From contig CM073321.1 in assembly GCA_037043015.1 (NCBI GenBank), positions 37,530,420 to 37,594,419 on the forward strand: DNA of 64,000 nt, written 5' to 3'. The notes under the pieces are model-generated. The model ran no database searches, was not told the DNA's origin, and worked only from the letters and a program-made list of their open reading frames with translations. Shown here piece after piece: positions 2,540 through 56,875 of this stretch. The stretch's first letter is position 1, and every line of letters begins with the position of its first letter. This DNA comes from Bryum argenteum (taxonomy: Eukaryota > Streptophyta > Bryopsida > Bryales > Bryaceae). The position numbers and the translations under genes are program-made.

Positions 2540-3184
2540 CTAAGGGTCAGATGTCTGTACCTGAATATAGGGATCGTCACTAGCAGGAGGATGATCGGAA
2601 GGAAGAAGGTGTATTTTGTGACCGGCGAAGGCAATGTCCTCAACTGTCAACTCGTAGTCGACCAAATCTACATCCGCTTTGGATGGCGATTGCCACTCCT
2701 TTAAACCTTCTACCACGTCGCCACTATCGGTAGCCGGTAGCCGGAGCAGTTCACAAAGGTTAGTTGTATCGTCGGGTCGACGATAATTCTCAGGCTGTTT
2801 GGCTTCAGCAAGGTCATTCCGGTCTTGCTGATCCTGATCCGCGAGGATTACAATCTCATCGGATGCGCCAACTGCTTGGCTAGCTTCGGTAGCAGCAGAC
2901 TCATGCTCATGGAGGTGAGTCGTATCGTCGAGTCGACAATAAACCTCTGGCTGCTCAACTTCACCAACAACATTGAGGACAAGCTGATTATTACCTAAAG
3001 GGATGGCGACGTCTGAAGATGTCTTAGACATATCGTCGGGTTGATGATAGACATGGACATCATCTCTTCGAGGCTCAGGCAGAGGAGCGCTCATGGACGG
3101 CGACAGAAGAGATGCGGTTGGGATTGGCGGAGTCGTAAGTGATTGGCATTGAGAAGCAGAAGCCGCTGCAGCAAAAGAAGCCAT
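2540..3184 (-). CDS. Acidic, palindrome-bearing exon of unknown function
   Basis: A 214-codon minus-strand open frame, Ala/Ser-rich at the N-terminus and acidic afterwards. It contains three copies of a peptide cassette of the type YRRPDDTTNL, YCRLDDTTHL and YHQPDDMSK. Each cassette is the translation of a family A palindrome (TATCGTC-n5-GACGATA) at 2768, 2923 and 3031. No conserved domain is recognised. It lies downstream, in minus-strand order, of the NPPY-motif gene at 4330-5761 and may be its last exon or exons. The frame is uninterrupted while its neighbours are broken. Function unknown. Confidence 0.4.
   Translation of the reverse strand: MASFAAAASASQCQSLTTPPIPTASLLSPSMSAPLPEPRRDDVHVYHQPDDMSKTSSDVAIPLGNNQLVLNVVGEVEQPEVYCRLDDTTHLHEHESAATEASQAVGASDEIVILADQDQQDRNDLAEAKQPENYRRPDDTTNLCELLRLPATDSGDVVEGLKEWQSPSKADVDLVDYELTVEDIAFAGHKIHLLPSDHPPASDDPYIQVQTSDP
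2768..3049. repeat. Family A palindromes, exonic (3 copies)
   Basis: Three 19-bp copies at 2768-2786, 2923-2941 and 3031-3049. The reference copy is TATCGTCGGGTCGACGATA: 7-bp arms TATCGTC/GACGATA around a 5-bp core. The other two have one or two substitutions. All lie in the same open frame on the minus strand and contribute the repeated PDD peptide. Confidence 0.75.
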
Positions 3185-3524
3185 CTAAGCCTGCAATTGT
3201 TTAAAGTGCTCTCTTGCCTCATCTTGGAAAGCCTGAAGTTTCACAGCAGCCTCTGCCTCAATTTGAGCAACTCTCTCATTGGCAATCCGAGTTGCTTCTT
3301 GAGCATCAACAAGCTTCTTTTGGTCCTCAGTCGCTCTTTCTCTTTCTGCGCCTTAATCTTCCGCCGCTGTACCTTCCTCTCTTACCTCTCCGTCTCCCTC
3401 TTTCAAAAATCCTTCCCCACCTTTATTGTTTTACCCTTATGAACAAGTGCTTTCATGTGGGGTGAGGGAAGATCATCCTCCTCATCATCACTATCGAAAG
3501 AGTGAACCTCAAATTCAATATCAC

Positions 3525-4042
3525 TCAATTAATGATGTGTATTGGATCCGGAGGTCGTCTCTCGACTACGGCGGAGATCACGACAACGTCATCGTTCACG
3601 ACCTCCCGCTCTTCCACAACAGCGTCACCCAAAGGAGCAGCTTCCGATTCTTCAACAACTCCCTCCGGTTGTGCATTAGCAGACTCGACATCGTCTTGTC
3701 CATCTAGCACAACCTCCTTGTTCAGCTGTGGAGCATCTCTGGCACCAAATTGTCATTAGCCTGCTCCGCGACGACTTCTTTTATTGGAGCGTCCGCCCCT
3801 TTGAGTTGATCGTCGGACCTCCCATGATCCTCCTCGTAAATCTCTCCTAGAATTCCTTCAACGACCTTCTCGAGAACTTCTGTAATGACATCGTCGACAA
3901 AAAGGAGTGCAGCGGTGTCATCCAGCTGTTCCATAGCAATGTCCAGAACACCTTCTTCGAAAGGAACGATTGCATTGAAGTCGTTTGAACTTTCTGTGCC
4001 GGGAACTACAGGAGCGCGCCGGAGATGAGATAGGATCATCAC
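3525..4042 (-). pseudogene. Acidic low-complexity exon pieces
   Basis: Two adjoining minus-strand frames (3722-4042 and 3525-3710). Both are strongly acidic and rich in Glu, Asp and Val (for example EESEAAPLGDAVVEEREVV), broken by a frameshift near 3715. The composition matches the 2540-3184 frame, so these may be exons of one gene encoding a disordered acidic tail. No domain is recognised. Assignment to the same gene as 4330-5761 is inferred only from strand and order. Confidence 0.3.
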
Positions 4043-4329
4043 GTGACTCTGTTTCTGAGTTCAAATGTGACCTAGCGTCATTCGTCTCCGTCAGTTGCGC
4101 CTCATTGTCAGATTTGTTGCAGATGGAAAGCCAATTCTCCTAAGCCTAACTCACATCACTCCCTTCCACTATTGGATTTGACGACATTCTTGGGAAAGAC
4201 GACATCAGTGACATGATCTGGAGGTATTTTATCCGAACTGATCGAGACCTTCAATTCCAGGATTGCTGGAGACATGAGGACCCACACACTCAATGTGTCT
4301 AATAGCTGCAGGCAATATCTCCTGGGTGA

Positions 4330-5761
4330 CTATAGAGCAAATGGAGGAGAAAGGAGATAATCAAAGTGCACGATGACGGGCACGCGACTCTTTGGGCGCT
4401 CAAAGGTGTTCGTATATGGAGGATTCGCAAACATAAAATCGTTCTTGTCCATCCTATTTGCGACTCTAGCAACTTTTAAGGCTCCCTTCGCTTTCTTCTG
4501 GTCTGTGAAGCCAAAATAATATGCTCTGAACATCCGCATAAAAACAATCAAGCAGTCAGGTTAGAAGTTTTGAAACGAGTCGGGATGTTATAGTCGTCCC
4601 AACGATATCAACTCCCAAGTCAAATGCTAATGTTGCCCTGACGATACAAGTTAGGTTAGAAACTCCACAAATAATAGAATCTAAGATCTGTGTAGTATAC
4701 TGAATGCTATCGTCGACCTGACGATAAGGACTAATGAGAACCTCACTAACAATGCAATCCGAGAACTGTGTACAACACTGAAGGCTATCGTTGACTCGAC
4801 GATAAGAAAGGATGTGTCATTACCTTTGTCGCTAGAAGAAACTTTGCGCCGGCGTACACCCCGATCACGTTATCCTTGGGTTGGGCACACGCGTGAAGTA
4901 AGTCTAGGTAAAACTCCATGCGGAGTTCAGTTGCGTAATGTCTCCATTTTGCCTTTGTATTCTTGGCAATGTTGTTATAATACAAACAAGTTGCGGAGGT
5001 GGAATATATATTTCTTATTAAATTCTTCGCTAAACCCGCAAACTCGTTGACCTTCTTGAACAAGAAGAGCAGTGTCAAGTTTGGAGAAATTGCCCGGTTT
5101 CTAACGTTATCCAGCATTTCTGCTTTAGCAGGAACAAATGTAGAGACCTTCATCTCGTATCCGGAGAGCTCCTGAGCAGCAAATGCTGATGCGACTCGTA
5201 TGTCGTCTTTATCTAGAAGGATAAAGGGCCAAATTTAGGAGTATTGATTGCAGGCTCAAAATTCTCTTGCAACAAGTTCAAGAACGGATTGATGGCGATT
5301 CGTGTATCGGTGGCGGGGGAACGTGGAATGTTCCGAGCATCCAATACAGTGAGGTTTACCGGCCGACGAGTATTAGTATACATACAACTTACAAGTAGCG
5401 CCCTGGCAGAGAAGTCTATTCCTTTCATCTGTACTCTTCCAGTACTCCCATGTATTCGGTATTTCAAGGCCAGAAACCTTGTGAATATAAACAGTACCTC
5501 GGGATGAACGTCGGCCAGATCTTTTGCTTGCCTATGTCTTGCCACATTGCGGAGCCTTTTCTTGAAGTAATCTGCAGGTGTATGTGCGATAAGATGATCC
5601 CATGTAGCCGACGTGAACTTGTGCCTAGTTTTCTAGGCCGTCCACGTTGCCTTTACATCACTGCCATTTTCTACAAATTTGAGTAAAGGCTTGAAATGGA
5701 TGATTTTTGCCATCACCACCTTCTTGCGCTTATGCCGTTCAACCCAATCAGCGCTGGACAT
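4330..5761 (-). pseudogene. Gene A: NPPY-motif protein, methyltransferase-like candidate
   Basis: Minus-strand gene starting at ATG 5761-5759 (MSSADWVERHKRKK). It has an in-frame TAG at 5635-5633 and a frameshift near 5225, then reads through a helical region to a donor at 4824/4823 (AAAG|GTAATG). An intron follows that holds family A palindromes, and the second exon starts at 4525 (TTCAG|AGCATA). That exon contains NDFMFANPPYTNTFERPKS. The NPPY tetrapeptide is the motif IV signature of amino-methyltransferases; the flanking glycine-rich AdoMet motif is not obvious, so the call is tentative. The gene abuts a MULE terminus at 5808. It is degenerate. Confidence 0.4.
4588..4804. repeat. Family A palindromes, intronic (4 copies)
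   Basis: Two good copies at 4708-4726 (TATCGTCGACCTGACGATA) and 4786-4804 (TATCGTTGACTCGACGATA), plus degenerate copies at about 4588-4610 and 4633-4647. They lie in the intron of gene A. The copies fall within about 200 bp and otherwise share little flanking sequence. Confidence 0.7.
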
Positions 5762-5807
5762 GTTCTCTGCTATGAGAAATTTTGTTCGGTACATTGAAGC
5801 CTTGGAA

Positions 5808-5862
5808 TAGGACGTTGCTACCGTGCGAGCGGTAAGCGGTGAGCGGTGAGCGGTGAGCGGAA
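5808..5862 (+). repeat. MULE terminal inverted repeat (A-right)
   Basis: Starts TAGGACGTTGCTACCGTGCG and continues into tandem GGTGAGC/GGTAAGC heptamers. It matches the reverse complement of 565-612. The same heptamer design is found at both ends of the MULE at 45089-50945. Confidence 0.7.
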
Positions 5863-9640: not shown

Positions 9641-9715
9641 TCCTTGTATTGCTTATAAATATGTAGTTGTAACGGGTATTTAACTAATTATGGACATATT
9701 TGTAGTCCAGAAATA

Positions 9716-9843
9716 ATATCGGCCTGCGGCCAACACATGGCGAAGATGCATACTTAGAATTCATAACACAATGTGTAAAAGTAAATATATATAAGTTAAA
9801 AAAGAAGTACAGTTTGAAAGGGAGTCGGCGTCCAGCCAATACT
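9716..9843. repeat. Degraded family B palindromes (2)
   Basis: TATCGGCCTGCGGCCAACA near 9717 and GTCGGCGTCCAGCCAATAC near 9825 are recognisable but decayed versions of TATCGGC-n5-GCCGATA. They lie just downstream of the FCP1-like exon, so family B continues on this side of the chromovirus insertion. Confidence 0.45.
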
Positions 9844-9855
9844 CGATATATAGAT

Positions 9856-10449
9856 GTTTACAAGTATTGATAAACAGGTTTTCCGTACTTCAAGGCATGT
9901 GCAACTTCAAAGTATATTTGACCAGGCCTATACGAGTGCTTCCTATACTTGGGAACAGATCGAAACTTATGTAAGGGATAAATGAAGGGGAGAATATCGG
10001 TAACTATATTAGAAATAGTCCTAGTTGGCAATGTTAAATCACCTTGAAAATGCCAAGGCATGTAGCAAGCAGCATCCGGAGTTCTACGGAGAGAGAGAGG
10101 ACTAACTTCAACTAGAAGAACTTGGTCAGGGTGGCACACATCCCGAGATTGGGGCTTACAGTAGAGAGTATTGAGAAGCTTGTAACACCAAGGGTAATTT
10201 TGAGGACGTTCACACTGCTCTCTTCCGAAGACGAATGATAACCTACCAGAAACGCCCTCTGGGAGAATGACTTTGAGGAGTGGCTTCAAATCCCTTAGAG
10301 GCATTTTCGACCACAAGCCAACATTGAATCGCTCTAGCAAAACTTGAAACAACTTCTTCAGACCAGGCCTCTTTACAATGTTCCGATGAGCGTCCCAACG
10401 GTCAACCGCAATATTAGGATCAATGAAGCACAGCAATCCCGACACGCAA
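9856..10449 (-). pseudogene. FCP1-like (HAD) domain, exon part distal to the chromovirus
   Basis: Minus-strand frame that continues the exon piece at 18570-18504 across the chromovirus. It reads CIVLCVSGLLCFIDPN, then KRPGLKKLF and FNVGLWSKM, then VLLVEVSPLSL. These match the order of FCP1/NLI-interacting-factor phosphatases: motif I (DxNGLL), RPGL..FL, V.VWSS, and LLIDDSP. Here the nucleophile Asp of motif I is Cys, the Asn is Ser, and the motif III Asps are lost, so catalysis is unlikely. The exon probably ends at 9856 before a GTAAAC donor. A second, better conserved FCP1-like domain lies at 19080-19806. Confidence 0.5.
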
Positions 10450-11743
10450 TGTCGCAACCCTTGCTAGCTCACCTTGGCTTACACCAACTTTTTCCCAACT
10501 CTAGCAAGTGTCACGAGCGCTAACTCTGCACATCCCCCACATGCACAAAGTTAGCTCTCCATACCAACCACCAAGCTCACCGCTTGGTTATCAATCCCTC
10601 TTACTCATGCAACCGGGACTCAACCCCTTCGTAGGTAGCCAATGGTTAGGTGCGGACTTCCACTTATGTCCAAGGCCCAACTTGGTGGCACTCCCATACC
10701 ACGCGGCCTAACCGCACTTGGTGGTGTCTCCTCACCACCGCCCATGACCACCATGGTGACCCCAAGGCCACCAAGTAATCACAACGCCGGCGGTGAGACA
10801 CCACCCCACATCGGTAGCACTCATGGTCCTCATTTTGCCTATATGAGTCCCCGTGGTGAAGCCCCAACACTAGCTCCCCACCGGGACTCACCTTGTCTTA
10901 TGAGCCACCGTGGTGAAGCCCCAACACTAGCTCCACCCACCGTGCCTCATTTTGCACTTTGAGTCCCCATGGTGGAGCCCCAACACTAGCTCCACCCATT
11001 GGGACTCACCTTGGCTTGGGAGTCCCCATGGTGAGGCCCCAACACTAGCCACACCACTCGGGACTCCCACCTTGGTCACCACCAAGGCACCATGGGAGTG
11101 GGGAGGGAGACCAGCCCTCCCCCTAGTATACTCTGTGGGATTCGGCAGCCCCCTGGTCCTAGGTGAAGGGCTGGACCCTCACACCTCTTAGTTTTGGAAG
11201 ACCACCCAATCTCCCAATGCCTTAGCCGCTGGAAGGCCCCGGGAGACTTCCCGAACCTTCCAGGGCTCGTATCTACCTCGTCCCGCATCCAAACGCGACA
11301 AGCGACCACTCTATCGACATCTACTCGTCAAGTAGATGCCGATAGACACCTTACTTGCCTCATTCCGACAAGTATTGAGGGAGTTATGCCCCTCTGAAGA
11401 TTCGGGAGTCCCGGGCCAGCTTCCCAGTCCAGCACTGTCCCTGGACAGCACTCCCTTTAGTCCCACAATCTTCCAACTCCCATAACTTTTAGCTCACACC
11501 TCCAACTGAGGTGCTCCTTAGCATCCCGGAATCGTGGCAACATGAGCTTCCATAATCTCATGTCCATTCCCTCGTGGCTCCTAGTCTCCGTGGGTGAGAG
11601 GCGTCTCCAACGCCCGGGGTCCTCTCCCACACTAGGCCCACTTAGGTTCCCTTCACCTTGGCACCCCAAGGCCCGGGCGTCACTCCGGTGTCCCCTTTGG
11701 GCCCTTGGTGTTGCGGGCACTCCTCAAGGAGAGGTGCGCGACA
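10450..11743 (-). repeat. Chromovirus 3' LTR
   Basis: 1,294 bp, the left copy and downstream LTR of the minus-strand element. It differs from the 17212-18503 copy at roughly ten sites, mostly single-base indels. Open frames inside it on both strands are shadows with no motifs. Confidence 0.93.
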
Positions 11744-11756
11744 CTCACCCCCACCT
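11744..11756 (-). other. Polypurine tract of the chromovirus
   Basis: On the minus strand the 13 bases immediately before the 3' LTR read AGGTGGGGGTGAG, a purine-rich run in the position where plus-strand DNA synthesis is primed in LTR retrotransposons. Confidence 0.7.
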
Positions 11757-12606
11757 AATGGAGTCGATGCCTCATCGACTATACTTGTAGTTGGTCACAC
11801 CAACTCTTGGGTTGCCATCCCCATTGGTGCAACATTGTGTTTCACCGGGCGCGACCCCACAATGCACTCTCAAACTTTGGCAAAGTCTCAAAGGTGTCGT
11901 CACTAGGTGGTCCGTTTAGTACCCTGGACCTCTTCCAAGGCAACTAAATTACTCTAGACCCACCTACTTTGAGACCCTCTTGGATTGCCCTTACCTTGGC
12001 TCTCAAGTTAGGCTCCACTAGCCTAACACTTCTTCCTTGACTACTAGGCTGGACCTCAATGCTTCCACCAAGTTGTCTTGGTTGCAAAACCCAAGATGGC
12101 TTTTACACCACGACTCGATCGCACGGGGTAATGCCAAGTTCCGCCCAACTCGGATCCCACTATCTCTTTCAAGGCATGGGTTCATGACTCCCATGCACTA
12201 GCTTGCACTAGTTTGTGGGAGTGGCGCTTTTTATGAGCACGCGCCATTACCTTGTCCCCCCAGGACAAGCCCAAGGCCAAGGGACTTCATGGTTTTATCC
12301 ACTCTTTCTCCTAGCCTTGGTCCCCATTACTCGGCCTTCCCAACTCGGTTTCACATCTCTATTCCCCCTCTTCCACCAACTTAGCACAAGTACAAGACTA
12401 GGACTCCATCTCATACTCTTCTCTTTGCACACACCAAAGCCAAACTTTATTGCCAAATCCAAAGAACAAGTACAAGTGTTGTGGATCTACGCCCAAGCTA
12501 CAAGTCATCCTCCCCCACTACGGAGGTTGATGTCCTCATCAATGCCTACGTTGCTTCTTGTTGGAGCTCCTATTCTTCTCAAAGTTCTCCACCACCTCCT
12601 TAGCAT
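11757..12606. other. Chromovirus 3' noncoding region
   Basis: Between the end of the coding region and the polypurine tract. A 273-codon plus-strand frame (12215-13036) is antisense to the integrase end and shows no motif. The minus strand below about 12590 has no coding support. Confidence 0.55.
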
Positions 12607-15600
12607 TCACCATGTCCTTTGCCGCCACCCACGTTGCTTCTTTCTCGTGGTATCTCGCCACTTCACAAGGTATTCCTTGCTCTTGTTTTTGAGGTTCCTA
12701 CTCTTGAGGATGGCCTCTACCTCATATTCCAAATGTTGTCCAACCAACTCTCGGTGGTGGCGAATCACTTGCTTGCGATCCGGCCACAAGGTATCCTCCT
12801 TGAATGGCTTTAACAATGAAACATGGAATGTTGGATGCACTTTGATCTCGGGTGGTAGCTCCAACTTATACACATCTTTGAACACCCGTTCCACAATGGG
12901 AAACGGACCCGCAAACTTGGACATGAACTTTGGAGTGAGGCCTTCGGGCATGGTGAAGTTCTTCACATTCAACAACACCTTTTGTCCCACCTCATACTCC
13001 ACTTCACGTCTTCCGGCATTGACTTGCTTCTCATAGCGCCTTCTTGCCTTCTCCAACAACAACTTGGTTTTTTCCAACATATGTTCCCGCTTCTTGGCCA
13101 AGTCTTCACCATCTTGGTTGAACTACGGTGTTGAATGTGCCCCCTCGAGAGCTAAGTCGGCGAGGTTGGAGTGGCTCCACTCCATAGGCCACTTTGAAAG
13201 GTGACTCCTTAGTCGCCGAGTGTGTGGCCGCATTGTAATCGAACTCCGCCAACCCCACATAGTCTACCCAATCACGTTGGTCCGCACTCACAAAGTTCCT
13301 CAAGTATTGGTTCAAGACCCCATTCACCCTTTCAGTTTGCCCATCTGTTTGGGGATGAAAGGCAGTGCTAAATGTCAACTTGGTTCCCACCTTCCTAAAG
13401 AAGTGTCTCCAAAATGCACTTGTGAACTTTGGGTCTCGATCTGACACAATCACTCTTGGCAACCCGTGATGCTTCCACCATGCATCGAGAAAGATCTTGG
13501 CGGTCTCAAGCGCAGTTGCAGTTCCTCTAGTTGGCACCATATGAGCCAACTTACTAAACCGATCCACCATCACTAAGATGGCATCATACCCTTGCGACTC
13601 GGAAAGGCTTGTGATGAAGTCCATAGACATACTATGCCAAGGACCCGGCGGAATTGGCAATGGTTGCAACAAGCCCGCTTGCTTTTGATATGAAGCCCGG
13701 TTAAGTTGGCACTTCACACAAGTCTTCACAAAGTGGGTTATGTCATCTTTCATCCCCGGCCAATAGTACCTCCTTGACACCGTTGCAATGGTAGCCTTTT
13801 CTCCCCTATGGCCGGCTATGGGACTATCATGTTCCTCCTTCAAAACCAACAATCTAAGCTTGCCTTGAGGAACATACACCCTACTTTGCTTATACTTGAG
13901 CAATCCATTCACCAACTTGATCTCCTTGAGCTTCTTGCCCTTCCTAAGATCACCAAGCATTTGTTGTGCCTCGGGGTCCTTCATGTACCCCTCTCTTATC
14001 CGCCGTTCCCAATTGCCTTCACCCTTATACATGAGCCGCAAGACTTGGGTGGTGCTCATGGCATGAAACTCTTCCTTTCTACTTAGCGCATCCGGCACCA
14101 CATTGTCACGGCCCGGTTTGTGGATCAAGTCCACATTCATGAGCGCCAAGGTATCATGCCACCTCAATTGTTTGGCACTCATTTGTGCTTGTGTCTCAAA
14201 ATACTTCAAAGACACATTATCGGTGTAGACCTTAGTCTTGTGCAACCCCAAGTAATGTTGCCATGTCTTCAAACAATGCACCACCGCAAAGAGCTCCTTC
14301 TCGTGAGTTGGCCATCTCCTTTGACACCCATCCAACTTCTTGCTCTCATAGGCAATTGGCCTACCATCTTGCATCAAGACGCCTCCAATGGCAAAGTCAC
14401 TTGCATCTGTGTGGACCTCAAAGGGCTTATCAAACTCAAGGAACTTCAACACTGGTGGAGATGACAACTTGTTCTTGAGTTCCTCAAAGGCTTGGTAGCA
14501 AAATTCATCCCATACTTGGTTCACCCCTTTTTTCAACAAGTCGGACAAAGGCTTGGCAATCTTAGAGAAGTTGCGTATGAAGCGGCGATAGTAGTTTGCT
14601 AGGCCAAGGAATGACCTAAGTCCCTTTTGTGTAGAAGGCCGCTTCCACTCTTGAATTGCCTTCACCTTCTTCATGTCCGGCTTGATTCCATCTCCGGTAA
14701 CCACATGGCCCAAGAACTCCATCTCAAGTTGTGCAAACTCACTCTTTTCCCCATTAGCATAAAGCTTGTTGTCTCTAAGCTTCATGAGTCACGCCTCAAG
14801 GTGCCTTGCATGTTCCTCGGCCGTCTTGGAAAACACCAAGATGTCATCGATGTAGACAATCACAAAGTCATCCATTTCCTCTCGAAAGATGGTGTTCATA
14901 AGGGTTGTGAATGTTGAGGGTGCATTGCACAACCCAAAGGGCATCACAAGGAACTCATAAGACCCATACCTTGTGCGGCACGCGGCGGTCTTTTCTACAT
15001 CCGCATCCGCAATGCGGATTTGGTAGTAACCCGACTTCAAGTCTATGCGACTAAAGTACTTAGCTCCCGCCAATCTATCAAAGAGATCATCAATTCGAGG
15101 CAAAGGGTAGTTGTTCTTGATGGTCACCTTATTCAAGGCCCTATAATCAATGCACATCCTAAGCTTGCCATCCTTCTTGTCCACAAAGAGGACCGGTGCA
15201 CCATATGGTGACTTGCTTGGTCTCACATAACCCCTTTCCAACAAGTCGTTTAGTTGCTTCTTTAGCTCCATCAACTCTTTTTGGTTTAACCGATAAGGTG
15301 CCTTAGAAGGTGGCTCAGCTCCAGGTAGCACCTCGATCTTGTGATCCACTTCTCTTCTTGGGGGTAGCTCTTTGGGTAACTCATTGGTAAGCACATCCTT
15401 GTACTTGGCCAACACCTCTTGAATTACTTTGGGAAGTGGTTGTTGCACCCCCTTCCCCTCATGCCCAAGTTGCTCTTCACGAGCCATCACCACAAATTGA
15501 TGTTCCAACATTTGGTCTAAAGAGACCAAGTTTAATTTGCCCCCCGCTATTGAAGGGCCACGAGTTAACTTCAACACTAACTCCTTGCCATCACGGCGCA

Positions 15601-15646
15601 CCACTAACCGTGGTGGCTTGCGCCTCACATCCATTGTGTGCGCCAA
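12607..15646 (-). pseudogene. Chromovirus pol: RT, RNase H, integrase, chromodomain
   Basis: Three main minus-strand blocks. 15646-14789 is reverse transcriptase ([43 protein letters not shown]). An in-frame TGA near 14787 interrupts it. 14785-13106 holds the RT thumb, RNase H (FEVHTDASDFAIGGVL), the integrase HHCC finger (H-x-H ... CVKCQ) and the core with VDRFSKLAHMVPTR and FHPQTDGQTERVN. After a frameshift near 13110, 13101-12607 carries the integrase C-terminus (PTFHVSLLKPF) and a chromodomain (YEVEAILKSR ... KEYLVKWR) that is itself frameshifted near 12655. All catalytic motifs can be seen, but the frame is broken at least three times. Confidence 0.93.
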
Positions 15647-16018
15647 AGAAGGTATCCCCTAAGATGAGGTCTACCTCATCCATCTCACATAATGTGAAAT
15701 TCTCAACAAACTCCAATGTCCCACACTTCAAGGTCACTTGCAACGCCACTTCCTCCGTCTTGTGCGGTTCGCCCTTTGCAAAACGCACATTGATGGGCTT
15801 GCTTGCCTTTTGCAGTGGCAAGCCCAACTCCTTGCTAGTTTGGGACTCATGAAGGAGTGCGTTGCCCCTGTATCAACCAAACATGAGACATCTTTGTCCT
15901 TCACTTGGGCCTCAAGAAACAAGAGGCCCGGCCTTGGCTTGAGGCTACTTGCCTTGGCCACAAAACCTCCTTCTAGTATGCGGTCTTCAACACAAGCAAG
16001 ACTTGCAATGGTACTCAC
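15591..16018 (-). pseudogene. Chromovirus aspartic protease region
   Basis: Minus-strand segment with the retropepsin signature CLVDTGATHSFMS (active-site DTGA), followed after a frameshift by [11 protein letters not shown], the usual second conserved block. At least two frameshifts (near 15830 and 15640) separate it from RT. It cleaves the Gag-Pol polyprotein in intact relatives. Confidence 0.85.
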
Positions 16019-16032
16019 CTTCTTGTCGGGGC

Positions 16033-17160
16033 ACTCCGCAATGAAGTGGCCAATCTTGCCACAACCATGGCACCTCTTGGCCTTGGTGTCATCACCTTTG
16101 TCTCCCCCTTTAGATGGCTTTCCCCTTGGTGTTCCCTTTTGTTAGAGGCTCCACCATCCACTTGTCCCTTGTGTTTGTTGCCAAAGCCAAACTTCTTGCG
16201 CTCTTTGCCTCGAGCCGCATTCCTATTTGATCCGCTTTGTTGAGAGGGGCCACTTGACTTCCTCTCGGGTCCATCACCTCAATCCTTTCAACAATCTTGA
16301 TGATGCCCGCCACATCCTCAGGAAGTTTTGGGAACTTGAACAAGGCATCCACCACCCACTTTTGAAGCCCACCCAAAAACATGCACTTCTTAGAGAACTC
16401 ATCCATCTTGGGTGTGGCATTCATTTGGGCATTGAAGTCACGCACATAGGCCTTGAGAGACCCGGTGTGCCTCATTTGCACCAAGTTCATGCCTTCCCTC
16501 AACTCCCGATACTACGGTGTGAAGCGTTCACTCAACAAGTCCTTGAAGCCACCCCAAGTCAAGTTTGCCACCAACTCCGGCTCTTGCTCCTTTTTGCTTG
16601 TCCACCATTGAAGAGCATGATCCTTGAGAAATGTCACCGCAATGGAAACCTTGTCCTCCTCATCCGGCTTTTGGACATCATAGTAGTTATCCATCTCAAG
16701 AAGGAATTCCTTCACCTTCCTTGCCTTACCAAGTCCCCGAGAAGGTGCTTGGCATGTTTACCTTAGCCAACTTTTTGGTGGAAGATGAAGGTCGGGACCC
16801 TTGCAACATGAGGTGTTCAATCAACCTCTCTTGGCGATCCCTTTCTTCCTTCCCACGCTTGAGCTCTTGATTCACGGAGTCCATGAACTCAAGCATTCTC
16901 ATTTGGAAAGCCAATTGAGGATCTTGTTTTTCCACCCCTTGGGAAGACTCTAGGCGTCTCGACCTAGAGCGCTCCTCTTCACCCAAGGGCTCCTCTTGAA
17001 GTGACAATTCCATTTGCTCATTGCCCTCACTAGTGGCAGCTTGCTCATTGGAGTCATGAGAATGAGCCTCACTTGTAGGATCGGGGTCTTTGTTCCCCCT
17101 CGTGCGTGGCCGCTTGGAAGCTCCAGGCTCATCACCCTCAATGGTCTTCTTCTTGCCCAT
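16033..17160 (-). pseudogene. Chromovirus gag with zinc knuckle
   Basis: Starts at ATG 17160 (MGKKKTIEGDEPGASK), with a charged N-terminal coiled region (RGKEERDRQERLIEH). The capsid-like part contains ALQWWTSKKEQ and LSERFTP, then an in-frame TAG near 16510 (CAG to TAG) inside ...RFTP*YRELREGMN. It continues through LGGLQKWVVDALFKFP and finishes with a CCHC knuckle, CHGCGKIGHFIAEC, at about 16078-16037. Frameshifts near 16730 and 16110 break it further. Gag packages the element RNA in intact copies. Confidence 0.88.
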
Positions 17161-17193
17161 TGCTCCTCACAACTTTGCACTTGGCTACTAAAA

Positions 17194-17211
17194 GCCGACT
17201 ACGATACCAAG
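17194..17211 (-). other. Primer binding site of the chromovirus
   Basis: Adjacent to the 5' LTR on the minus strand, after one T, the sequence reads TGGTATCGTAGTCGGC. The first seven bases match the 3' end complement of plant initiator tRNA-Met (TGGTATC...), the usual primer of plant gypsy elements. Later bases diverge, so the primer identity is tentative. Confidence 0.6.
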
Positions 17212-18503
17212 TGTCGCAACCCTTGCTAGCTCACCTTGGCTTACACCAACTTTTTCCCAACTCTAGCAAGTGTCACGAGCGCTAACTCTGCACATCCCCC
17301 ACATGCACAAAGTTAGCTCTCCATACCAACCACCAAGCTCACCGCTTGGTTATCAATCCCTCTTACTCATGCAACCGGGACTCAACCCCTTCGTAGGTAG
17401 CCAATGGTTAGGTGCGGACTTCCACTTATGTCCAAGGCCCAACTTGGTGGCACTCCCATACCACGCGGCCTAACCGCACTTGGTGGTGTCTCCTCACCAC
17501 CGCCCACGACCACCATGGTGACCCCAAGGCCACCAAGTAATCACAACGCCGGCGGTGAGACACCACCCCACATCGGTAGCACTCATGGTCCTCATTTTGC
17601 CTATATGAGTCCCCGTGGTGAAGCCCCAACACTAGCTCCCCACGGGACTCACCTTGTCCTTATGAGCCACCGTGGTGAAGCCCCAACACTAGCTCCACCC
17701 ACCGTGCCTCATTTTGCACTTTGAGTCCCCATGGTGGAGCCCCAACACTAGCTCCACCCATTGGGACTCACCTTGGCTTGGGAGTCCCCATGGTGAGGCC
17801 CCAACACTAGCCACACCACTGGGACTCCCACCTTGGTCACCACCAAGGCACCATGGGAGTGGGGAGGAGACCAGCCCTCCCCATAGTATACTCTGTGGGA
17901 TTCGGCAGCCCCCTGGTCCTAGGTGAAGGGCTGGACCCTCACACCTCTAAGGTTTGGAAGACCACCCAATCTCCCAATGCCTTAGCCGCTGGAAGGCCCC
18001 GGGAGACTTCCCGAACCTTCCAGGGCTCGTATCTACCTCGTCCCGCATCCAAACGCGACAAGCGACCACTCTATCGACATCTACTCGTCAAGTAGATGCC
18101 GATAGACACCTTACTTGCCTCATTCCGACAAGTATTGAGGGAGTTATGCCCCTCTGAAGATTCGGGAGTCCCGGGCCAGCTTCCCAGTCCAGCACTGTCC
18201 CTGGACAGCACTCCCTTTAGTCCCACAATCTTCCAACTCCCATAACTTTTAGCTCACACCTCCAACTGAGGTGCTCCTTAGCATCCCGGAATCGTGGCAA
18301 CATGAGCTTCCATAATCTCATGTCCATTCCCTCGTGGCTCCTAGTCTCCGTGGGTGAGAGGCGTCTCCAACGCCCGGGGTCCTCTCCCACACTAGGCCCA
18401 CTTAGGTTCCCTTCACCTTGGCACCCCAAGGCCCGGGCGTCACTCCGGTGTCCCCCTTGGGCCCTTGGTGTTGCGGGCACTCCTCAAGGAGAGGTGCGCG
18501 ACA
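17212..18503 (-). repeat. Chromovirus 5' LTR
   Basis: 1,292 bp, the right copy and upstream LTR of the minus-strand element. The promoter should lie here, but I could not pick out a convincing TATA box by eye. Near identity to 10450-11743 dates the insertion as recent relative to the decayed MULEs. Confidence 0.93.
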
Positions 18504-18570
18504 CGCAAAGGACAATGCACTTCTTGATGGAATGTTGTCGATCGAAGATGGAATCAATGTGGAGAAGACC
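18504..18570 (-). pseudogene. FCP1-like exon, 5' part, split by the chromovirus
   Basis: After an acceptor TTTTCTTCATGCAG (18584-18571, minus strand) the exon reads HIDSIFDRQHSIKKCIVLC and joins in frame to VSGLLCFIDPN at 10444 when the element and one CGCAA copy are removed. Restored reading across the insertion shows that this was one exon before the retrotransposon arrived. An intron with family B palindromes precedes it. Confidence 0.5.
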
Positions 18571-18638
18571 CTGCATGAAGAAAACATGCAATACAGAAAC
18601 AATTAGGTGTGAGGAATAACAAGACGAGACAGGACTCA

Positions 18639-19032
18639 TATCGGCCGGCAGCCGATATGGAAAGAGGAGGTGAAGTACAAAGAGCAAGAGGGCCATAAAA
18701 AGAATGAGCACAAAGATATTCATATCAAGCAAAACAGAGAGCAAACAAATACTACATGAATCGAATAATAAATGGAGACAACTCAGAGAATCAAAGAATA
18801 AAGTAAAGGCAGCTGAAGAAAAATAATAAAGTCGATTGTCATATACCATGATGAAAAGTTTGTGTACAAAAGGCGGACCTCAAAATGTACAGTTACTAGA
18901 GAAGGCCAACCTGAGTTCAATAAAAAAGTGCTACAGAATATCCAGATGGACGCCTATATATAAATCCTATAAATGTACAGGACTATATACTCCTCCATAA
19001 AAACAGAGCAGAAGTATCGGCCGGCAGCGGAC
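18639..19032. repeat. Family B palindromes between the two FCP1-like parts
   Basis: Copies at about 18639-18657 (TATCGGCCGGCAGCCGATA) and 19014-19032 (TATCGGCCGGCAGCGGACA, decayed). The rest of 18571-19079 is AT-rich with no coding support, and is either an intron or an intergenic spacer. Confidence 0.75.
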
Positions 19033-19079
19033 AAGAAATCCGAGGCCGATCTCCACGGCGTTGCGGAAGACTATGAAGT

Positions 19080-19806
19080 CCTAGCAAGTTTGGACAACTC
19101 CGCGTGCAGAGGATTAGAAGGAAAAATCCTCAACTTCCCATACTCGGAGTTGGCCTGAAAAAACTGAGGAACAGGAAGCTGAAGCTCTTTCAGCTGATGC
19201 AGCAAGGGCTGCAGAATAGTAAGAAGGACTGGCATTGAGGAGGATGACTTCTCCGAATCCTTCGTAAACGTTTCAGGGTGAAAAGCGCTGTAAGGATTAT
19301 TGAGGACGTTTTTGTACGGGGAGTCATCAATGAGAAGCATATTCTCCTCAATGGCTTCATGCGCAACTAACTCAGGGCAACACAAAAGAAGGTGCCTTAT
19401 GCACTTGAGAAAGACAGGAACACCTGGCGTCTGAGGGTCCTGGAAAGCACTTATCAAGCACTTGGATGCCCATAAGCAAAAGTGGGATCCGGGAATGTAG
19501 GAACCCCGTCCCGGATATACTCGAAACGAGATGCCAGGTTTTTCTCCTGAACGGAGGACCACAAGACCACCTCAAAGTTGTTATCCAAACACCAAGGAAG
19601 AAGCTCCTTGAGACCATGCCTAATCCGAGCCACGGCCTTTAGAACTTTCTGCTGAATGATCTTCCCAGGACGAAAGTACATAATGGTCCCATTGATGTCA
19701 AAAAGAAGAAAGTATTTCCGAGGTACCTTAGGTACGGGAGGTACAGATGAAACAGACGCGAGGGGAGCAGACCGCTGCGGAGAGGTCCCCGCAGATCCAT
19801 CTTGCT
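19080..19806 (-). pseudogene. Gene B exon 6: FCP1-like phosphatase domain
   Basis: Starts at an acceptor TTGCAG|AGCAAG; phase matches the exon 5 donor GGAG|GTTTGT. After a Pro/Ser-rich linker (SAPLASVSSVPPVPKV) it reads KYFLLFDINGTIMYF (motif I, DxNGT as in the DLNGT subgroup of FCP1-homology proteins), FEVVLWSS (motif II region) and MLLIDDSPYKNVL (motif III, DDSPYK). A frameshift near 19463 separates the two halves. The frame ends with TAG at 19082-19080. FCP1-like domains are HAD-fold phosphatases. The second Asp of motif I is Asn, so activity is doubtful even without the frameshift. Confidence 0.6.
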
Positions 19807-20125
19807 CTGCAATGCGATAATAAGAAATTCAAATACCAACATCAGAACGTAGAGAGTAAAACTAGGTGGACAGAGACATGTCGGCCGGCGGCCGATACAT
19901 TGTATGAACAGAACGGAAAACCAGATATATGTACACCAAGCAGTACGCAGAATGAGAATTTCAGTAACTGTATCAATAGACAACCGACGAACTATGGGTG
20001 TCGGCTGGCGGCCGATACAATCTGAACTTCTCAGACGGAGCGTATTGCTCGGGAGACTGCGGCTAATTCTAATGTACTGAAGGTATGGATAAAAAGCTAA
20101 ATCTACACCGACGTCTGGAACAAAC

Positions 20126-20924: not shown

Positions 20925-20958
20925 CTGCGTTTCACAATAAACCGAAAGTTAGAAATGT

Positions 20959-21108
20959 ATCGGCCGGCAGCCGATAAGTACAGACACTCCAAAAGAGAGG
21001 AAAAAAACCAACGGAATGAAATGTATCGGCCGACAGCCGATAACTCCAGACACTCAAAAAGAAAGAAAAAAAAGCAACGGAATGAAATGTATCGGCCGGC
21101 AGCCGATA
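20959..21108. repeat. Family B palindromes in gene B intron 4 (3 tandem cassettes)
   Basis: Copies at about 20959, 21025 and 21090 (TATCGGCCGGCAGCCGATA or one change), spaced about 65 bp. Each sits in a repeated cassette with flanks such as AACGGAATGAAATG, so the cassette, not only the palindrome, was duplicated. Confidence 0.85.
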
Positions 21109-21145
21109 CATACAGAAAACCAAACAAAATAGGCGAGAAGCTTAC

Positions 21146-22612: not shown

Positions 22613-22628
22613 CGAGAAGAAGACATAC

Positions 22629-38436: not shown

Positions 38437-38477
38437 TTTTGGCGATCATACTGGGGATGGAATGCTGAGGTAGATTC

Positions 38478-38508
<31 letters not shown>

Positions 38509-38539
38509 TTTCTGGCTATAAGCCCATAGGAAGGGAAAA

Positions 38540-39011: not shown

Positions 39012-39012
39012 G

Positions 39013-39112
39013 AGTTGTCTTATGAGACACTGTCGAACGTCAGAGAGACACGACATGTCAGATAGACATTGAGCTTCAAAATGTCTAATAGAATCTACAA
39101 AATCTTTTCCTA
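39013..39112 (+). repeat. Family C1 element terminus, copy 2
   Basis: GTTGTCTTATGAGACACTGT onwards, a direct repeat of 35578-35680. It is inserted directly after the gag codons for HIRRFKQ. Inward sequence carries a family C palindrome cluster. Confidence 0.7.
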
Positions 39113-39395
39113 CAGCCGATGGGCGAACGTCGATCAGTGGGGCGACCGCCGATCTAGCTGATGGGCGAACGTAGCTCAGAGGGCGACCGCCGATCCAGCT
39201 GATGGGCAAACATAGCTTAGAGCGCAACCGACGGTCTAGCTGATGGGCAAGGACAAAGTGTCCGCAAGCCTATTTGTACCCCTCCTGTTGGGGCGAACGC
39301 CGATACAACCGATGGGCAAACGTCGGTCAGTGGGGCGACCGCCGATACAACTGATGGGCGAACATAGCTGAGAGGGCGACAAGCGGTCTACCTGA
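39113..39395. repeat. Family C palindrome cluster 2
   Basis: Alternating GGGCGAACGT and GGGCGACCGCCGAT motifs, each about 25-40 bp apart, joined by AGCTGATGGGC. They are variants of the GGGCGAC-n5-GTCGCCC family in half-site or mutated form. Confidence 0.7.
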
Positions 39396-39656
39396 TGGGC
39401 ACAAATATCTACTTCCCCCCCTATTCCTACATATCTTTTTGTTTATATTTGAATTCATGTAGGATTATACTGATTATGACCTTTAGATGTTTTGGGAGGT
39501 TTGTCCAAATTTTTATTGGCTCTAAATACTCGCAAGTAAATCCCACCATATTAGTAGGTAACTCCAACAACTTAGTTACAATTCCAAATTTTAACAAATT
39601 ATTTATCGTTACTTAATCGTGGATTAAGACTAATAAAAGCTTTTAAAAATTCAAAA

Positions 39657-40159
39657 TCTATATATATAATAAATACAGTACGGCGATCCTTCCTATCGAC
39701 TAAACCTTCCTACCCAACGTACCACCCTACCATCCTACCAACCAACCTATCTACCTTTTGTGTTTTTTGGATTGAGTAAATTAAAATGAATTAAAATAAA
39801 ATTATATAATTTTTAAAAAGACAAGGGCCTATATAAATTTAATATGGAATGGTATACACGAGATACTTTTTTTAAACTACCACCATCCAAAGTATCCACC
39901 AACCTACCAACATACAAATCTACCAACTTACGAAATTACCAACCTACCTACAATTCTACCAACCTTATTTTACATTTTTTTAAATCATGCATTTAAAAAT
40001 TAAAAAAATAAATAGAATAAAAAGATGATAAAACTAAAACGGTGGGTATATATAAAAATAATAAACATAACACCGTTCAACGCAATGGTAGACACCTGAT
40101 ACTTTTTTGAGAGTACCATATGAAAAGCTTCTCCGTCAAGACAACGGGTATCTTACTAG
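39657..40159 (+). mobile_element. Non-autonomous Helitron, 503 bp
   Basis: Starts TCTATATATATAATAAATAC (5' TC end) and ends with a short hairpin (CCGT at 40133-40136 pairing with ACGG at 40144-40147) followed by GTATCTTACTAG. The flanking bases are A (39656) and T (40160), the AT target used by Helitrons. Both termini match typical plant Helitron ends. There is no coding capacity; a CTACCAAC-rich repeat fills the interior (39700-39970). Confidence 0.75.
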
Positions 40160-40303
40160 TACAATCATATCATATAATCAAGAAGGTACACTGTATGACA
40201 TATAGCCTTGAACATATCTTGCAAATTTTAATTCAAAAATAAAATAAAATAACTGGATATAACCAACACACAAGCGTCTTTCTAAAATTTAATCCCGCTT
40301 ACT

Positions 40304-40603
40304 CTAATCTTCTTCCATTGTACTCCCACTTTTTTCTCCTTGGTACCATCTCCGATATTTCTCTTTTGTCTTATTTGCAATACATAAATCTTCAATTCTT
40401 GCCTTCAAGAACCTCTCCTCTTCTGCGCATACAAGTAGCTTTTTGACCAACTCCTCAATTGTTTCACTGCCCTGTGAACTTTGATCCTCTTCTACAATTT
40501 CCATGCAATCTACTGGATTGAGTACTAGCTTTTCTTTGTTCTCCCTCAATCTTCCTGATGCTTGACTAGTAGCTAATTTCACCCTTTTGATCTTAGAGCT
40601 CAA
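40304..40603 (-). CDS. Unknown 99-aa charged protein
   Basis: Minus-strand open frame rich in Lys and Glu, predicted to be helical or coiled coil (TIEELVKKLLVCAEEERFL). It ends RRWYQGEKSGSTMEED. It lies between a Helitron and a family C palindrome cluster. No homology is recognised; it could be one exon of an element-encoded gene or a chance frame. Confidence 0.3.
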   Translation of the reverse strand: MSSKIKRVKLATSQASGRLRENKEKLVLNPVDCMEIVEEDQSSQGSETIEELVKKLLVCAEEERFLKARIEDLCIANKTKEKYRRWYQGEKSGSTMEED

Positions 40604-40665
40604 GATACATATACTTCACCGGCATTCCCATCTTTCCAATGCCTTGCTACTGTAAGACAGGTGGT

Positions 40666-40835
40666 GTCAGGGCGACATCATTAGAGCGACGGGCGGTCCA
40701 GAATTTCTTGCAAGACTCGCTCCGGGGCGACCGGCGGTCCAGCTGCACCAGACCTCCGGGGCGACCGACGATGCAGCTGCAAAAGAGGTCCAACCTCAGC
40801 AGCGGTTCGGGGCGACCGACACTCTGCAGGAGCGA
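40666..40835. repeat. Family C palindrome cluster 3
   Basis: Five or so copies of GGGCGACCGGCGGTC or close variants (for example near 40734 and 40760), with GAGCGACGGGCGGTCC at 40684 and GGGCGACCGACACTC near 40810. Confidence 0.75.
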
Positions 40836-40909
40836 CTACGCGGGAGCTCCCGCTCTTGTTCTTGAATCCTCTTTCTTCAATATTCAAATTTTGAATTAAC
40901 GGCTTCAAG

Positions 40910-42085
40910 CATCTCCCCCATTCCCCCCTCCAATCCCCCTCACCCCCCCCTCATTCCCTCTCATTCCCACTCGGTTCTTTCTATTTCTCGTTTCCAAATG
41001 AAAATTATTCTCATGGTCATGGGTATTTTGCCAAGAGCTGTGACCATGATAAATAAAAGATGAAATTTTGAGGGCATTAGATACTCTTCTGGTGTGATAT
41101 GGATTTAGATCGGTACAAGTTTAATCACAATTTTAAAATAGAAATCTCAACATTCTCAAAATTCTCAATATAAAATTCTCAAAAAATATTGGTTTCAACA
41201 GGACCCTAAGTAGTTGGTTGATCAAAATGTCTGCAAATGATTATTCTTGTTGACTTAAAATATTTACCTTCATACGGTAGTCACTCATTTTTTCTCAGAA
41301 CATATAATATGTTATATATCACCCTTTAATTTGGTAAGCATCTATTTCTCTCATTGCTTACTAGGCTATATGCACTAATCCCTCACTCTTAATTGTATTA
41401 AAAGGCGTTATCATTTAACCCGCCAAAATTTTCAAAATCCTCCCCTCTCTCAATTTAACCAATGTTGTAATGTCATGGGGAAATAAACTAATTGCAAGGA
41501 TAATCTATTAGCATACATATACTTGGATATCGTATATGGAGAGCTTATAATTTATTAAAGGCTCCACTGATATAAAAAGAAACTACAAATTATTCTTGAA
41601 TGTGATGTTAGAACATGAGGACTGGTGAAGTTTTGGTGCAAAGATGATATCTTGTCTAGATGCTAGAAATTGAGTGACTGAATTTAATTCTAAGATTGTA
41701 GCTATCAAATCGTTAGATGCATTAAAGTGTTTCATGCATTGAAGAGGCTCATGCTCTATAAATGAATTCTCATTTTATCAATTATTATAAATAGTTAGGC
41801 ACAATATGAATTGTTAAAATATACATCATACAAAAAAATATATATACCATTGATGCCTACGAAGAGGACGAGAAACTCTCACCCCATCCTCCCTCCCATT
41901 CATTATTATCCATTTAGACCTCTCTTGTCCATTTCTTATGAATTGAATGATGATGAAATGGGAATCATGGGACCAACGATCCGTAATTACTACCCTTTGC
42001 GTACCTTGTTAATTTTTAACTAATACATTATAAACTATAGGGCTCTTTTACCCCTCCTCCATCCAATACTCATCCTCATCTCATC
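40910..42085. other. AT-rich region without assigned features
   Basis: No convincing gene. A 70-codon plus-strand frame at 41811-42023 has no motif. Sequence is AT-rich and looks like element interior or intergenic DNA. Confidence 0.4.
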
Positions 42086-42185
42086 CCATGGGCGAACGTC
42101 GGTCACAGGGCGACCGGCGGTGCACATTCTGTAGACCGCCGGTCGCCATATTACTATGCTTAAGAAGGCGACCGGCAGTCCATTT
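42086..42185. repeat. Family C palindrome cluster 4
   Basis: GGGCGAACGTCGGTC, GGGCGACCGGCGGTGC and GACCGCCGGTCGCC within 100 bp. Confidence 0.7.
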
Positions 42186-42450
42186 TCACACTTTGCGAGT
42201 CCCTCCTTTTGCGCATTGACTAGTATCGACTACAGTTTTGCTGCTTGCTTGCACGTAGAGGGAATTTGCATTTCTACGGATTTTTTTGATGGAGGCACTA
42301 CTCGTTGTAGCTGCTATATCCATGGTGCCACATGACTAAGGTTGGAAGATAAAGAAGAGAATTGAGGAGAAGCGCATAGAGATCTTGAAGAATCTGTAGA
42401 TATTAGCGTTTAGAGAATGGGAGGAAGACACGGAGTCGTGGTCTTTTGCC

Positions 42451-42650
42451 ATGTGTGTGGGATATGTGGAGTGGTGCCACATCAACAAGCTCTTTTCTCC
42501 ACATCGGCACAACATTCATTGGTCTCTCAATGCAGCAAACCTCCGAGAGTGCCATAATGACCTATCTAAACACGGATGCATATATGCTTGGCATTTGATA
42601 TACGGTACCAACCATATTTTTAAATATGAGGTTCCCTACTTCTTGGCAGG
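42451..42650 (+). CDS. Possible short exon, function unknown
   Basis: Plus-strand frame reading MCVGYVEWCHINKLFSPHRH then CHNDLSKHGCIYAWHLIYGT, rich in Cys and His but without a named zinc-finger spacing. It runs into family C palindromes. Low support. Confidence 0.2.
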
Positions 42651-42654
42651 GCCC

Positions 42655-42880
42655 TGGGCAATCGTCGCTCGCTCTAGGCAGACCAGCGGTCGCCTAGGCG
42701 CGGTGGTTCGGTCGACCGCCGGTCTCCCCCAAGCGAGCGTCTATTGCCCTGGGCGATCGTCGCTTACTCTAAGGAGACCGGCGGGCGCCTAGGCGTGGTG
42801 GCGAGGGCGATCGGCAATCGCCAAAGGCGACCGTCGATTGCATAGGCCCACTGTCGGTCGCTTACTCCAGCTCGCCCACC
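42655..42880. repeat. Family C palindrome cluster 5
   Basis: Many GACCGCCGGTC, GCGGTCGCCTAGGCG and GGGCGATCGTCG variants packed in 220 bp, immediately inside the family C2 terminal repeat at 42860-43110. This is a subterminal position. Confidence 0.75.
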
Positions 42881-43110
42881 CACGGTCACCTTCTGTGACT
42901 AATATTCCATTTTCCACGTCATTATCGACCCTACGCCACGTATGAGAATAGCATTTTACCTCAATGTCAATCTCGAAAACCCTCAACAAGTTTTTACTAT
43001 GCAATTTCTGGTATGGTCGACATCCCCATCGAGTCGGACGTCAGACAGACATGTCGAGTATGACAATTCAGACATACATTCCGAAAAGTGTATCTAATAA
43101 GACAACCTTG
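42860..43110 (-). repeat. Family C2 terminal repeat, copy 1
   Basis: About 250 bp, inverted copy of 56317-56560. On the minus strand the terminus reads GGTTGTCTTATTAGATACAC, related to the C1 ends at 35578 and 39013. The element extends leftwards from 43110. Shared internal blocks include CTATGCAATTTCTGGTATGG and AATATTCCATTTTCCACGTC. Confidence 0.8.
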
Positions 43111-56052: not shown

Positions 56053-56172
56053 GTGAGTTCTCCACCTCTTTGTTTGATTTGCATTTTGGTCGATCATATT
56101 TGTGATATTGTCTATTTTCTTGGTTTATTTTTCAGACCTATATGTCAAAGACAATATTACTAGTACAATCAC

Positions 56173-56316
56173 TTGCACCTTACACTTGCATCTAGACAAC
56201 CAAAGCCACTTGTTATTGCAAAAGATCCATACACACTTGAACTTAACCTCAGAAAACATGATATGATATGTAACTTGGTGGATTCAAAGTCTTTGTTGTG
56301 TAGAGTTGTAGACAAG
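56173..56316 (+). CDS. Gene C last visible exon part, cut by family C2
   Basis: Reads PKPLVIAKDPYTLELNLRKH then DMICNLVDSKSLLCRVVDK and is interrupted by the family C2 terminus at 56317. The frame continues by chance into the repeat. Confidence 0.35.
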
Positions 56317-56560
56317 GTTGTATTATGTTACACACTTTTCAGAATGTGTGTCTGTATTGTCCATATTTGTCATGTCTGTCTGACGTCCAATTTGAGAGGA
56401 ATGTCAACCATACTAGAAATTGCATAGTAAAAACTTGTTGAGGGGTTTAGAGATTGACATTGAGGTAAAAGCTGTTTTCATACGTGGCGAAGGGTCGATA
56501 ATGACGTGGAAAATGGAATATTAGTCACACTAGGCGACCGCGGGTGGGCGAGCTTGGGTA
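56317..56560 (+). repeat. Family C2 terminal repeat, copy 2
   Basis: Starts GGTTGTATTATGTTACACAC and matches the reverse complement of 42860-43110. The element extends rightwards from here and has family C palindromes inside. It is more diverged than copy 1 at the extreme end. Confidence 0.8.
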
Positions 56561-56875
56561 GGCGACTGATGGCCGCCTTGTGCGACCGACGGTCGCCTAT
56601 GGCGATCGTTGGTCGCCCTAGGCCACTACACCTAGGCGACCCGCGGTCCCTCCCCGGGCATTGGGCCGTTGCATTGGCCACAGCGCCTAGGCAATCGCCA
56701 GTCTCCCCGGAGCAATCGACGGTTGTCTAGGGCGATCAACGGTCGCTTATAGCAATCGCCGCTCGCCTATAGCGATTGTTGGTCGCACTGAGACACTGCA
56801 CCTATGGGCGATCAACGGTTGCCTTGGAGGATCGGCGCTCGGCCAAGGCCACCACGCGTGTGGCGACCGGCATTG
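56520..56875. repeat. Family C palindrome cluster 6
   Basis: Dense GGCGACCGCGGGTGGGCGAG, GTGCGACCGACGGTCGCCTA and GGCGATCGTTGGTCGCCCTA variants at 15-30 bp spacing, in the same subterminal position as cluster 5. Confidence 0.8.

Follow-up and report, generated by a model that had tools for sequence, protein, structure and literature searches.

Large DNA transposons of the moss Bryum argenteum that carry a gene for the domain DUF7869 (PF25273) also carry dense arrays of 19-bp palindromes, built of two inverted 7-bp arms around a 5-bp core (a 7-5-7 plan). The arrays are specific to element lineages, tied to DUF7869 genes and, in the part of the genome for which sites were listed, kept apart from one another. 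We suggest that the palindromes are sites at which a protein encoded by the element recognizes its own kin. The system was studied from a stretch of 64,000 nucleotides (the window; C1:37530420-37594419, contig CM073321.1 of assembly GCA_037043015.1), and the genome searched comprised 259 Mb in 25 contigs. An initial annotation of the window had described locus-specific families of such palindromes, an observation that is real and is partly confirmed here.

Palindrome families in the window

The window holds 42 perfect 7-5-7 inverted repeats, as against a mean of 3.45 and a maximum of 7 in 20 first-order Markov simulations of the window, which served as the chance expectation; 23 of the 42 are sites of two families, A (TATCGTC arms) and B (TATCGGC arms). 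Family A was found as annotated at 2.7-4.8 kb, with positions one base off: its sites at 2767 and 4708 are perfect, those at 2923, 3031 and 4786 have one mismatch and that at 4589 has two. Family B had been placed at 9.7-32.8 kb. It has 21 perfect sites, which lie at 18639-32255 only, and many more at one or two mismatches (43 in all between 18.5 and 33.1 kb when up to two mismatches are allowed); the outer limits rest on weaker sites, at 9717 (two mismatches) and 9823 near the left end and at 32787 (one mismatch). The B palindromes occur in introns, in exons, between genes and near the right end of their element. Each family keeps to its own territory within the window, as had been noted, and the territories are nested transposable elements. 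The similarity of arms between related elements on one 7-5-7 plan is likewise supported. The third annotated family, C (GGGCGAC-n5-GTCGCCC), has no perfect site in the window, and its sites fit a degenerate 17-bp palindrome instead.

Arm types across the genome and at DUF7869 genes

Exact palindromes number 7847 genome-wide for TTAGCTC arms, 1272 for TCAACTC, 635 for TATCGGC, 393 for TATCGTC and 15 for TATCCTC. The identical patterns read backwards, counted genome-wide as controls, gave one copy for TTAGCTC and none for each of the other four. For common patterns, positions were taken from the sites listed first.

A first look at the genome gave 1808 candidate DUF7869 elements. Twelve further DUF7869 loci of the same clade (L045-L049, L051-L057) were fetched by gene position, our own non-random choice among ~150 listed matches, and were searched with no preset arm (any 7-bp arm may win). 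One dominant 7-5-7 family, with 5-16 sites, was present in nine of the twelve; shuffles of these loci gave at most one site. TATCGTC won in L045, L046, L051 and L057, TTAGCTC in L047, L048, L049 and L056, and TATCCTC in L055. Measured from the aligned start of the DUF7869 protein, the arrays stand 1.06-2.54 kb upstream, with one L048 site as the lone exception. As an independent check, a further DUF7869 match (C4:237503) has TATCCTC sites ~2 kb upstream, at C4:235512 and 235689. A DUF7869 gene with a broken frame (L058; identity to protein P0047 up to 71%) was also present in the DNA beside a TCAACTC array at C1:319734, on the side and strand that we had expected beforehand (an unrecorded expectation). 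In L050, which belongs to another DUF7869 clade, we noted 16 TGACT-n6-AGTCA sites at 7504-9280, a different palindrome plan.

Clustering by locus showed the arms of the listed sites to be unmixed, as the initial annotation would have it. On C1 (0-5.06 Mb), joining at 10 kb grouped the 128 sites listed for four arm types into 24 clusters, none of them mixed, compared with a mean of 13.1 and a minimum of 10 mixed clusters under shuffled labels. When TTAGCTC was added (C1 up to 1.06 Mb), one two-type cluster appeared at 10-kb joining and none at 5 kb.

Arm type also mostly follows the transposase tree. On a tree of 19 transposases with eight labels (two of these being 'none' and 'outgroup'), the arm labels need seven changes, which is the least possible, and 0 of 200 shuffles were as low, a result aided by near-copies among the 19 sequences. 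The five TATCGTC rows form a single clade (support 100/99).

Anatomy of the site

Position and core statistics were drawn from 43 B, 123 A and 48 TTAGCTC sites. The arms of these three families carry 1.67-1.88 bits per position, values favoured by the choice of sites, compared with 1.04-1.42 bits in the cores and 0.15-0.55 bits in the 12-bp flanks. At B sites the flanks (0.15 bits) are unrelated, and therefore the B sites are not only tandem copies. The core, annotated as freely varying, proved to be constrained. It reads YGSCR in 36 of the 43 B sites and GASTC in 36 of the 48 TTAGCTC sites (16/123 in A); in 106 of 123 A cores the first letter is G and the last is C, though the inner letters vary. 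C or G occupies the centre almost throughout (40/43 B, 119/123 A and 45/48 TTAGCTC sites). We infer that the B core YGSCR is the pattern expected if CpG in the core decayed to TpG/CpA and arm CpG was retained.

The family-B transposon and its relatives

The B element (Table 1) measures ~14 kb without its inserts. Its inverted ends, AACGGGTATTTAACTAATTATGGACA, are 26 bp long, and 24 of the 26 letters agree between left and right. A second copy (C1 ~1604.6-1619.2 kb; L032/L033) and the empty, diverged site of L034 fixed the limits; the target-site duplication (TSD) is 4 bp, TTGT in the window and TCAT in the second copy (two copies only). The sole Pfam match of its transposase open reading frame (ORF) at E≤0.01 is DUF7869, and the protein probably has a DDE / RNase-H-like fold. 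Its named matches belong to two mosses, Ceratodon purpureus and Physcomitrium patens, and, at greater distance, to the liverwort Riccia. With tblastn, moss DUF7869 proteins (P0006/P0008/P0011 and others) aligned to 26639-27161 and 27486-27953 upstream. The palindromes at 26701 and 27053 are in reading frame and encode IGWRPI/IGCQPI; in the Ceratodon protein P0006, VGCPPT occurs twice close to the N-terminus, and the A sites within window positions 2767-3049, also in frame, encode YRRPDD-like peptides.

The accessory gene of B runs divergently from the transposase gene and includes an exon with a GGQH motif (22629-23111) and a next exon at ~21140-22462 (limits judged by eye); an A element shows a similar order of accessory exons. 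Of 34 homologues of the accessory exon taken from other collections, 11 have, in a tail running past the exon, a peptide that a B palindrome would encode, against a background of 2 of 52 DUF7869 proteins (a 5-residue peptide). This evidence is at the peptide level only: not all 34 homologues extend beyond the exon, the peptide is 5 residues long in 9 of the 11, and 5 of the 11 are close mutual copies.

Table 1 Features of the window, with related arrays in A-family elements (strand "." where none applies).
Feature	Position	Strand	Remarks
Family-A palindromes, TATCGTC-n5-GACGATA	2767..4804	.	pattern search
A-family element remnant, accessory-gene part	3031..5809	-	75-82% identity with a part of C1:224501-238000
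Family-B transposon (23.4 kb with its inserts)	9671..33109	+	inverted ends AACGGGTATTTAACTAATTATGGACA, TSD TTGT outside
Left terminal inverted repeat of B	9671..9696	+	
Gypsy-type (domain order) long terminal repeat (LTR) retrotransposon in B	10450..18507	-	LTRs 10450-11747 and 17212-18507, 99% identical
Family-B palindromes, TATCGGC-n5-GCCGATA	18639..32805	.	43 sites, ≤2 mismatches
Exons of divergent accessory gene(s) of B	19071..24139	-	homologues without Pfam family
Densest B palindromes, between two divergent genes	24163..26321	.	pattern search
Upstream exons of B transposase gene	26366..27953	+	two in-frame palindromes
DUF7869 (PF25273) ORF, catalytic part of B transposase	28163..30154	+	BAH/chromo-like C-terminal part
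Solo LTR inserted in B	30639..32163	+	TSD GACGT
Telomere-like TTTAGGG repeat inside B	32555..32758	+	
Right terminal inverted repeat of B	33084..33109	-	
C element, ends CARGGTTGTCTTAT	35574..43110	+	8-bp TSD GCTAGCGG/GCTAGTGG, empty site in L034
Second C array	56533..56823	.	adjoins terminal-inverted-repeat-like sequence at ~56313
TTTAGGG arrays in A-family elements	L038 2866-2958; L040 3997-4039; L044 (~C1:2130.5k)		

The A remnant in the window is related to the B element, and the A sites at 2767 and 2923 sit just beyond its aligned end. Two of three fuller A elements contain a diverged DUF7869 gene. Arrays of TTTAGGG also occur in the A-family stretches A1, A2 and A4. Within B, the LTR retrotransposon is foreign to the palindrome system and not part of it. 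A 1.5-kb inverted repeat (7693-9215 with 30639-32163) could pass for a pair of transposon ends; the solo LTR makes one of its halves. On the minus strand of B there is a match to a NIF/FCP1-like phosphatase at 9858-10457 (PF03031, E 1.8e-6, above the cut-off) and a second such piece at 19457-19828 (E 0.025, below the cut-off).

Proposed recognition by an element-encoded protein and competing explanations

Because of the arms, the placing of the arrays and the tree, we somewhat favour an overall explanation in which the palindromes would be lineage-specific sites for a co-diverged, dimeric protein encoded by the element, in the manner of the VANC proteins of Arabidopsis VANDAL transposons. Large DUF7869 transposons would carry the palindromes as recognition sites, each lineage having its own outer half-site (TATCGG, TATCGT, TTAGCT, TATCCT or TCAACT) around a centre of odd length whose middle is nearly always C or G. 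A dimer of the DNA-binding protein would then distinguish its own kin from other families; candidates for the binder are the product of the accessory gene and the N-terminal part of the transposase. That an element-encoded protein reads lineage-specific sites we consider likely. Sites are concentrated upstream of the transposase gene; the B element has further dense stretches in its introns, in the space separating its two genes and toward its right end. A VANC-like action would be the most probable one, the element's own protein gathering on the array and keeping its family active (anti-silencing or self-activation) while others are left untouched; such an anti-silencing or activating effect is possible, and we put it at somewhat less than an even chance.

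Several results weigh against this explanation. L053, the nearest relative of B on the tree, has an even-numbered 20-bp palindrome (four exact genome copies, every one at L053), and L052 and L054 show no palindrome array in 4.2 kb. Among 30 loci of other DUF7869 clades, covered with ±1.5 kb of flank, no convincing array was found (29 with 0-3 sites, and L015 with seven of an AT-rich word; ten control stretches had ≤3 sites each), and A4, a 19-kb A-family stretch, has no DUF7869 match. Two arm types stand inside 10 kb in L045, which has six TCAACTC sites at 8381-8802 beyond the gene besides its TATCGTC array, and in L042, which was fetched for an A site near a DUF7869 gene and where five sites are of TTAGCTC type and three of TATCGTC type. 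The window copy of B's accessory exons matches nothing in Pfam, there is no sequence match in the PDB, and the exon's structure model is poor (predicted local distance difference test score, pLDDT, 49). The five TTAGCTC rows fall on two transposase clades that are 52% identical; a single TTAGCTC clade, a question that an earlier tree without L058 had left open, is disfavoured by the approximately unbiased test (p-AU 0.025, tested post hoc with the tree already seen). Arm and transposase are therefore not strictly linked, and of the annotated pairing of each arm with one protein clade only the clustering of arm types on the tree stands. The rates of change are also divided. From A2 to A4, arms changed at 7/98 positions, the core at 13/35 and flanks at 67/254 (A4 to A2: 16/126, 16/45 and 83/303), a comparison biased towards conserved arms by sites having been picked by their arms. 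The lower change of arms than core is thus seen in A2/A4, but in A2-A1 and B pairs the arms changed about as much as the flanks.

In L042, the two arm types share one 9.5-kb stretch, in which the TTAGCTC array stands by the transposase, and an accessory exon of A-like type (44% identical) has the TATCGTC sites beside it; this mixture may reflect either nesting or an exchanged module. TTAGCTC may be an older state, or its arrays may have been exchanged between elements.

It is also conceivable that the sites serve transposition or self-repression as binding sites for the transposase or for a TNPA-like partner, in the manner of the subterminal repeats of CACTA and Ac. Some B sites do lie towards the ends, the C array is subterminal in an element with an 8-bp TSD, and CACTA motifs, which differ between families, are bound by TNPA (parts of PMC2613891). 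Most B sites, however, are internal, in introns, between genes and 5' of the transposase gene, and those nearest the left end of B are weak (2-3 mismatches); we regard this alternative as unlikely. Reading by a host activator or silencer, with lineages having drifted to different host factors, would suit the closeness of TATCGGC, TATCGTC and TATCCTC and the C/G at the centre of almost every site in three families. It fits poorly with listed sites that are mostly clustered by type, apart from other types, and with arm types that go with transposase clades, and we hold it to be quite improbable. Even less credible is satellite growth free of selection, in which slippage or gene conversion would amplify palindromes inside elements and drift would differentiate them. 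Several arrays are indeed tandem, with units of ~45-55 bp or 75-80 bp, but the flanks of the 43 B sites are unrelated, these sites are spread over introns, exons and promoters, and separate lineages share the 7-5-7 geometry while their arms differ.

Recognition by a co-diverged element protein, as the initial annotation had proposed, thus keeps its element-specific arms, its separated families and its clustering of arm types on the transposase tree; a strict rule of one arm per clade is lost, and binding itself we infer. More speculatively, and at less than even odds, these elements may constitute a bryophyte transposon superfamily with a modular address code: an odd centre with a C/G middle, interchangeable half-sites, co-diverged readers and mutually blind families. 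With such a code, the VANC-motif principle would have been invented independently, here with a palindromic site read by a dimer, and thousands of elements in one genome would have sorted themselves by it. If element-encoded recognition is right, it would be a second, unrelated case of family-specific self-recognition in transposons, with >10,000 exact sites and five arm types in one genome. Protein-site co-evolution would then be directly testable, and the unnamed domain DUF7869, a term for which our literature search found no paper, would gain a biological context.

The C element and the rest of the window

By its TSD, the C element is hAT-like. hAT elements have an 8-bp TSD; here GCTAGCGG/GCTAGTGG agree in seven of eight letters, and the empty site in L034 reads GCTAGCGG. 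The C sites fit the degenerate 17-bp palindrome GGCGACCGNCGGTCGCC, with 34 sites in the window at ≤4 mismatches. Five stretches drawn around them hold 33 of the 34, compared with a mean of 0.24 and a maximum of 2 in shuffled stretches. The arrays lie near the element ends and by an internal terminal-inverted-repeat-like sequence (39013), and 19 exact copies were counted genome-wide. Two reading-frame pieces from 57-58.9 kb gave no Pfam match, hAT transposase included, at E≤1. Membership of C in the 7-5-7 plan is not supported: its palindrome is 17 bp long and degenerate, its TSD has 8 bp, and no DUF7869 was found there.

A large inverted-pair element (window 1-609, 5810-7692, 33110-35573 and 43111 onward; L034) hosts the A remnant, B and C; L034, which lies immediately before the window, is a diverged, inverted copy of this host. 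A SWIM-like zinc finger ORF in the host element (6284-6664; E 0.19, below the cut-off) hints at a Mutator-like element (MULE). A 179-bp tandem repeat has ~17 copies at 50946-54183, and a related piece lies at 44937-45084.

Comparison with known systems

The C array resembles Ac/Ds (hAT) in the placing of short repeats close to the ends of an element with an 8-bp TSD, and differs in that its palindromes are 17 bp and degenerate. B was set beside the Sola superfamily: Sola elements have a 4-bp TSD, a DDD transposase, variable terminal inverted repeats and sizes up to >15 kb, and occur in the moss Physcomitrella (parts of PMC10741241 and PMC9033089). Because of its 4-bp TSD (TTGT and TCAT; two copies) and probable DDD-like fold, B may belong to Sola, with which it was compared by description only. 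The Sola descriptions in those parts (PMC10741241, PMC9033089) mention no palindrome arrays.

CACTA elements (En/Spm, Tam1 and soybean Tgm) are similarly large, encode a transposase and a second DNA-binding protein, and have motifs that diverge between families; their repeats are subterminal (PMC2613891, in part), whereas most B sites are internal and B differs in its ends and TSD length. With ends of AACGGGTATTT... and a 4-bp TSD in place of CACTA-type ends and a 3-bp TSD, B was rejected as a CACTA element.

VANDALs are MULEs, and VANDAL membership of B was excluded, since its transposase ORF matches DUF7869 only and not a MULE (Mutator-type) transposase. In the sections consulted of PMC5735166, VANDAL motifs of Arabidopsis are described as family-specific and dense, in introns and upstream regions, and co-evolution of the VANC motif with the element protein is proposed. 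DUF7869 elements likewise have a dense motif array of their own per family, which differs between related families (compare PMC5735166, in part), and their family-specific arrays also lie in upstream regions and, in B only, in introns. VANC motifs are 8-9 bp long and, for VANC21, in one orientation (PMC5735166, in part), and the word 'palindrom' is absent from that paper's main text; here the site is a 19-bp palindrome, in elements with a 4-bp TSD and DUF7869. In density, placing and divergence, the DUF7869 arrays nevertheless appear to match VANC targets more closely than they match CACTA subterminal repeats.

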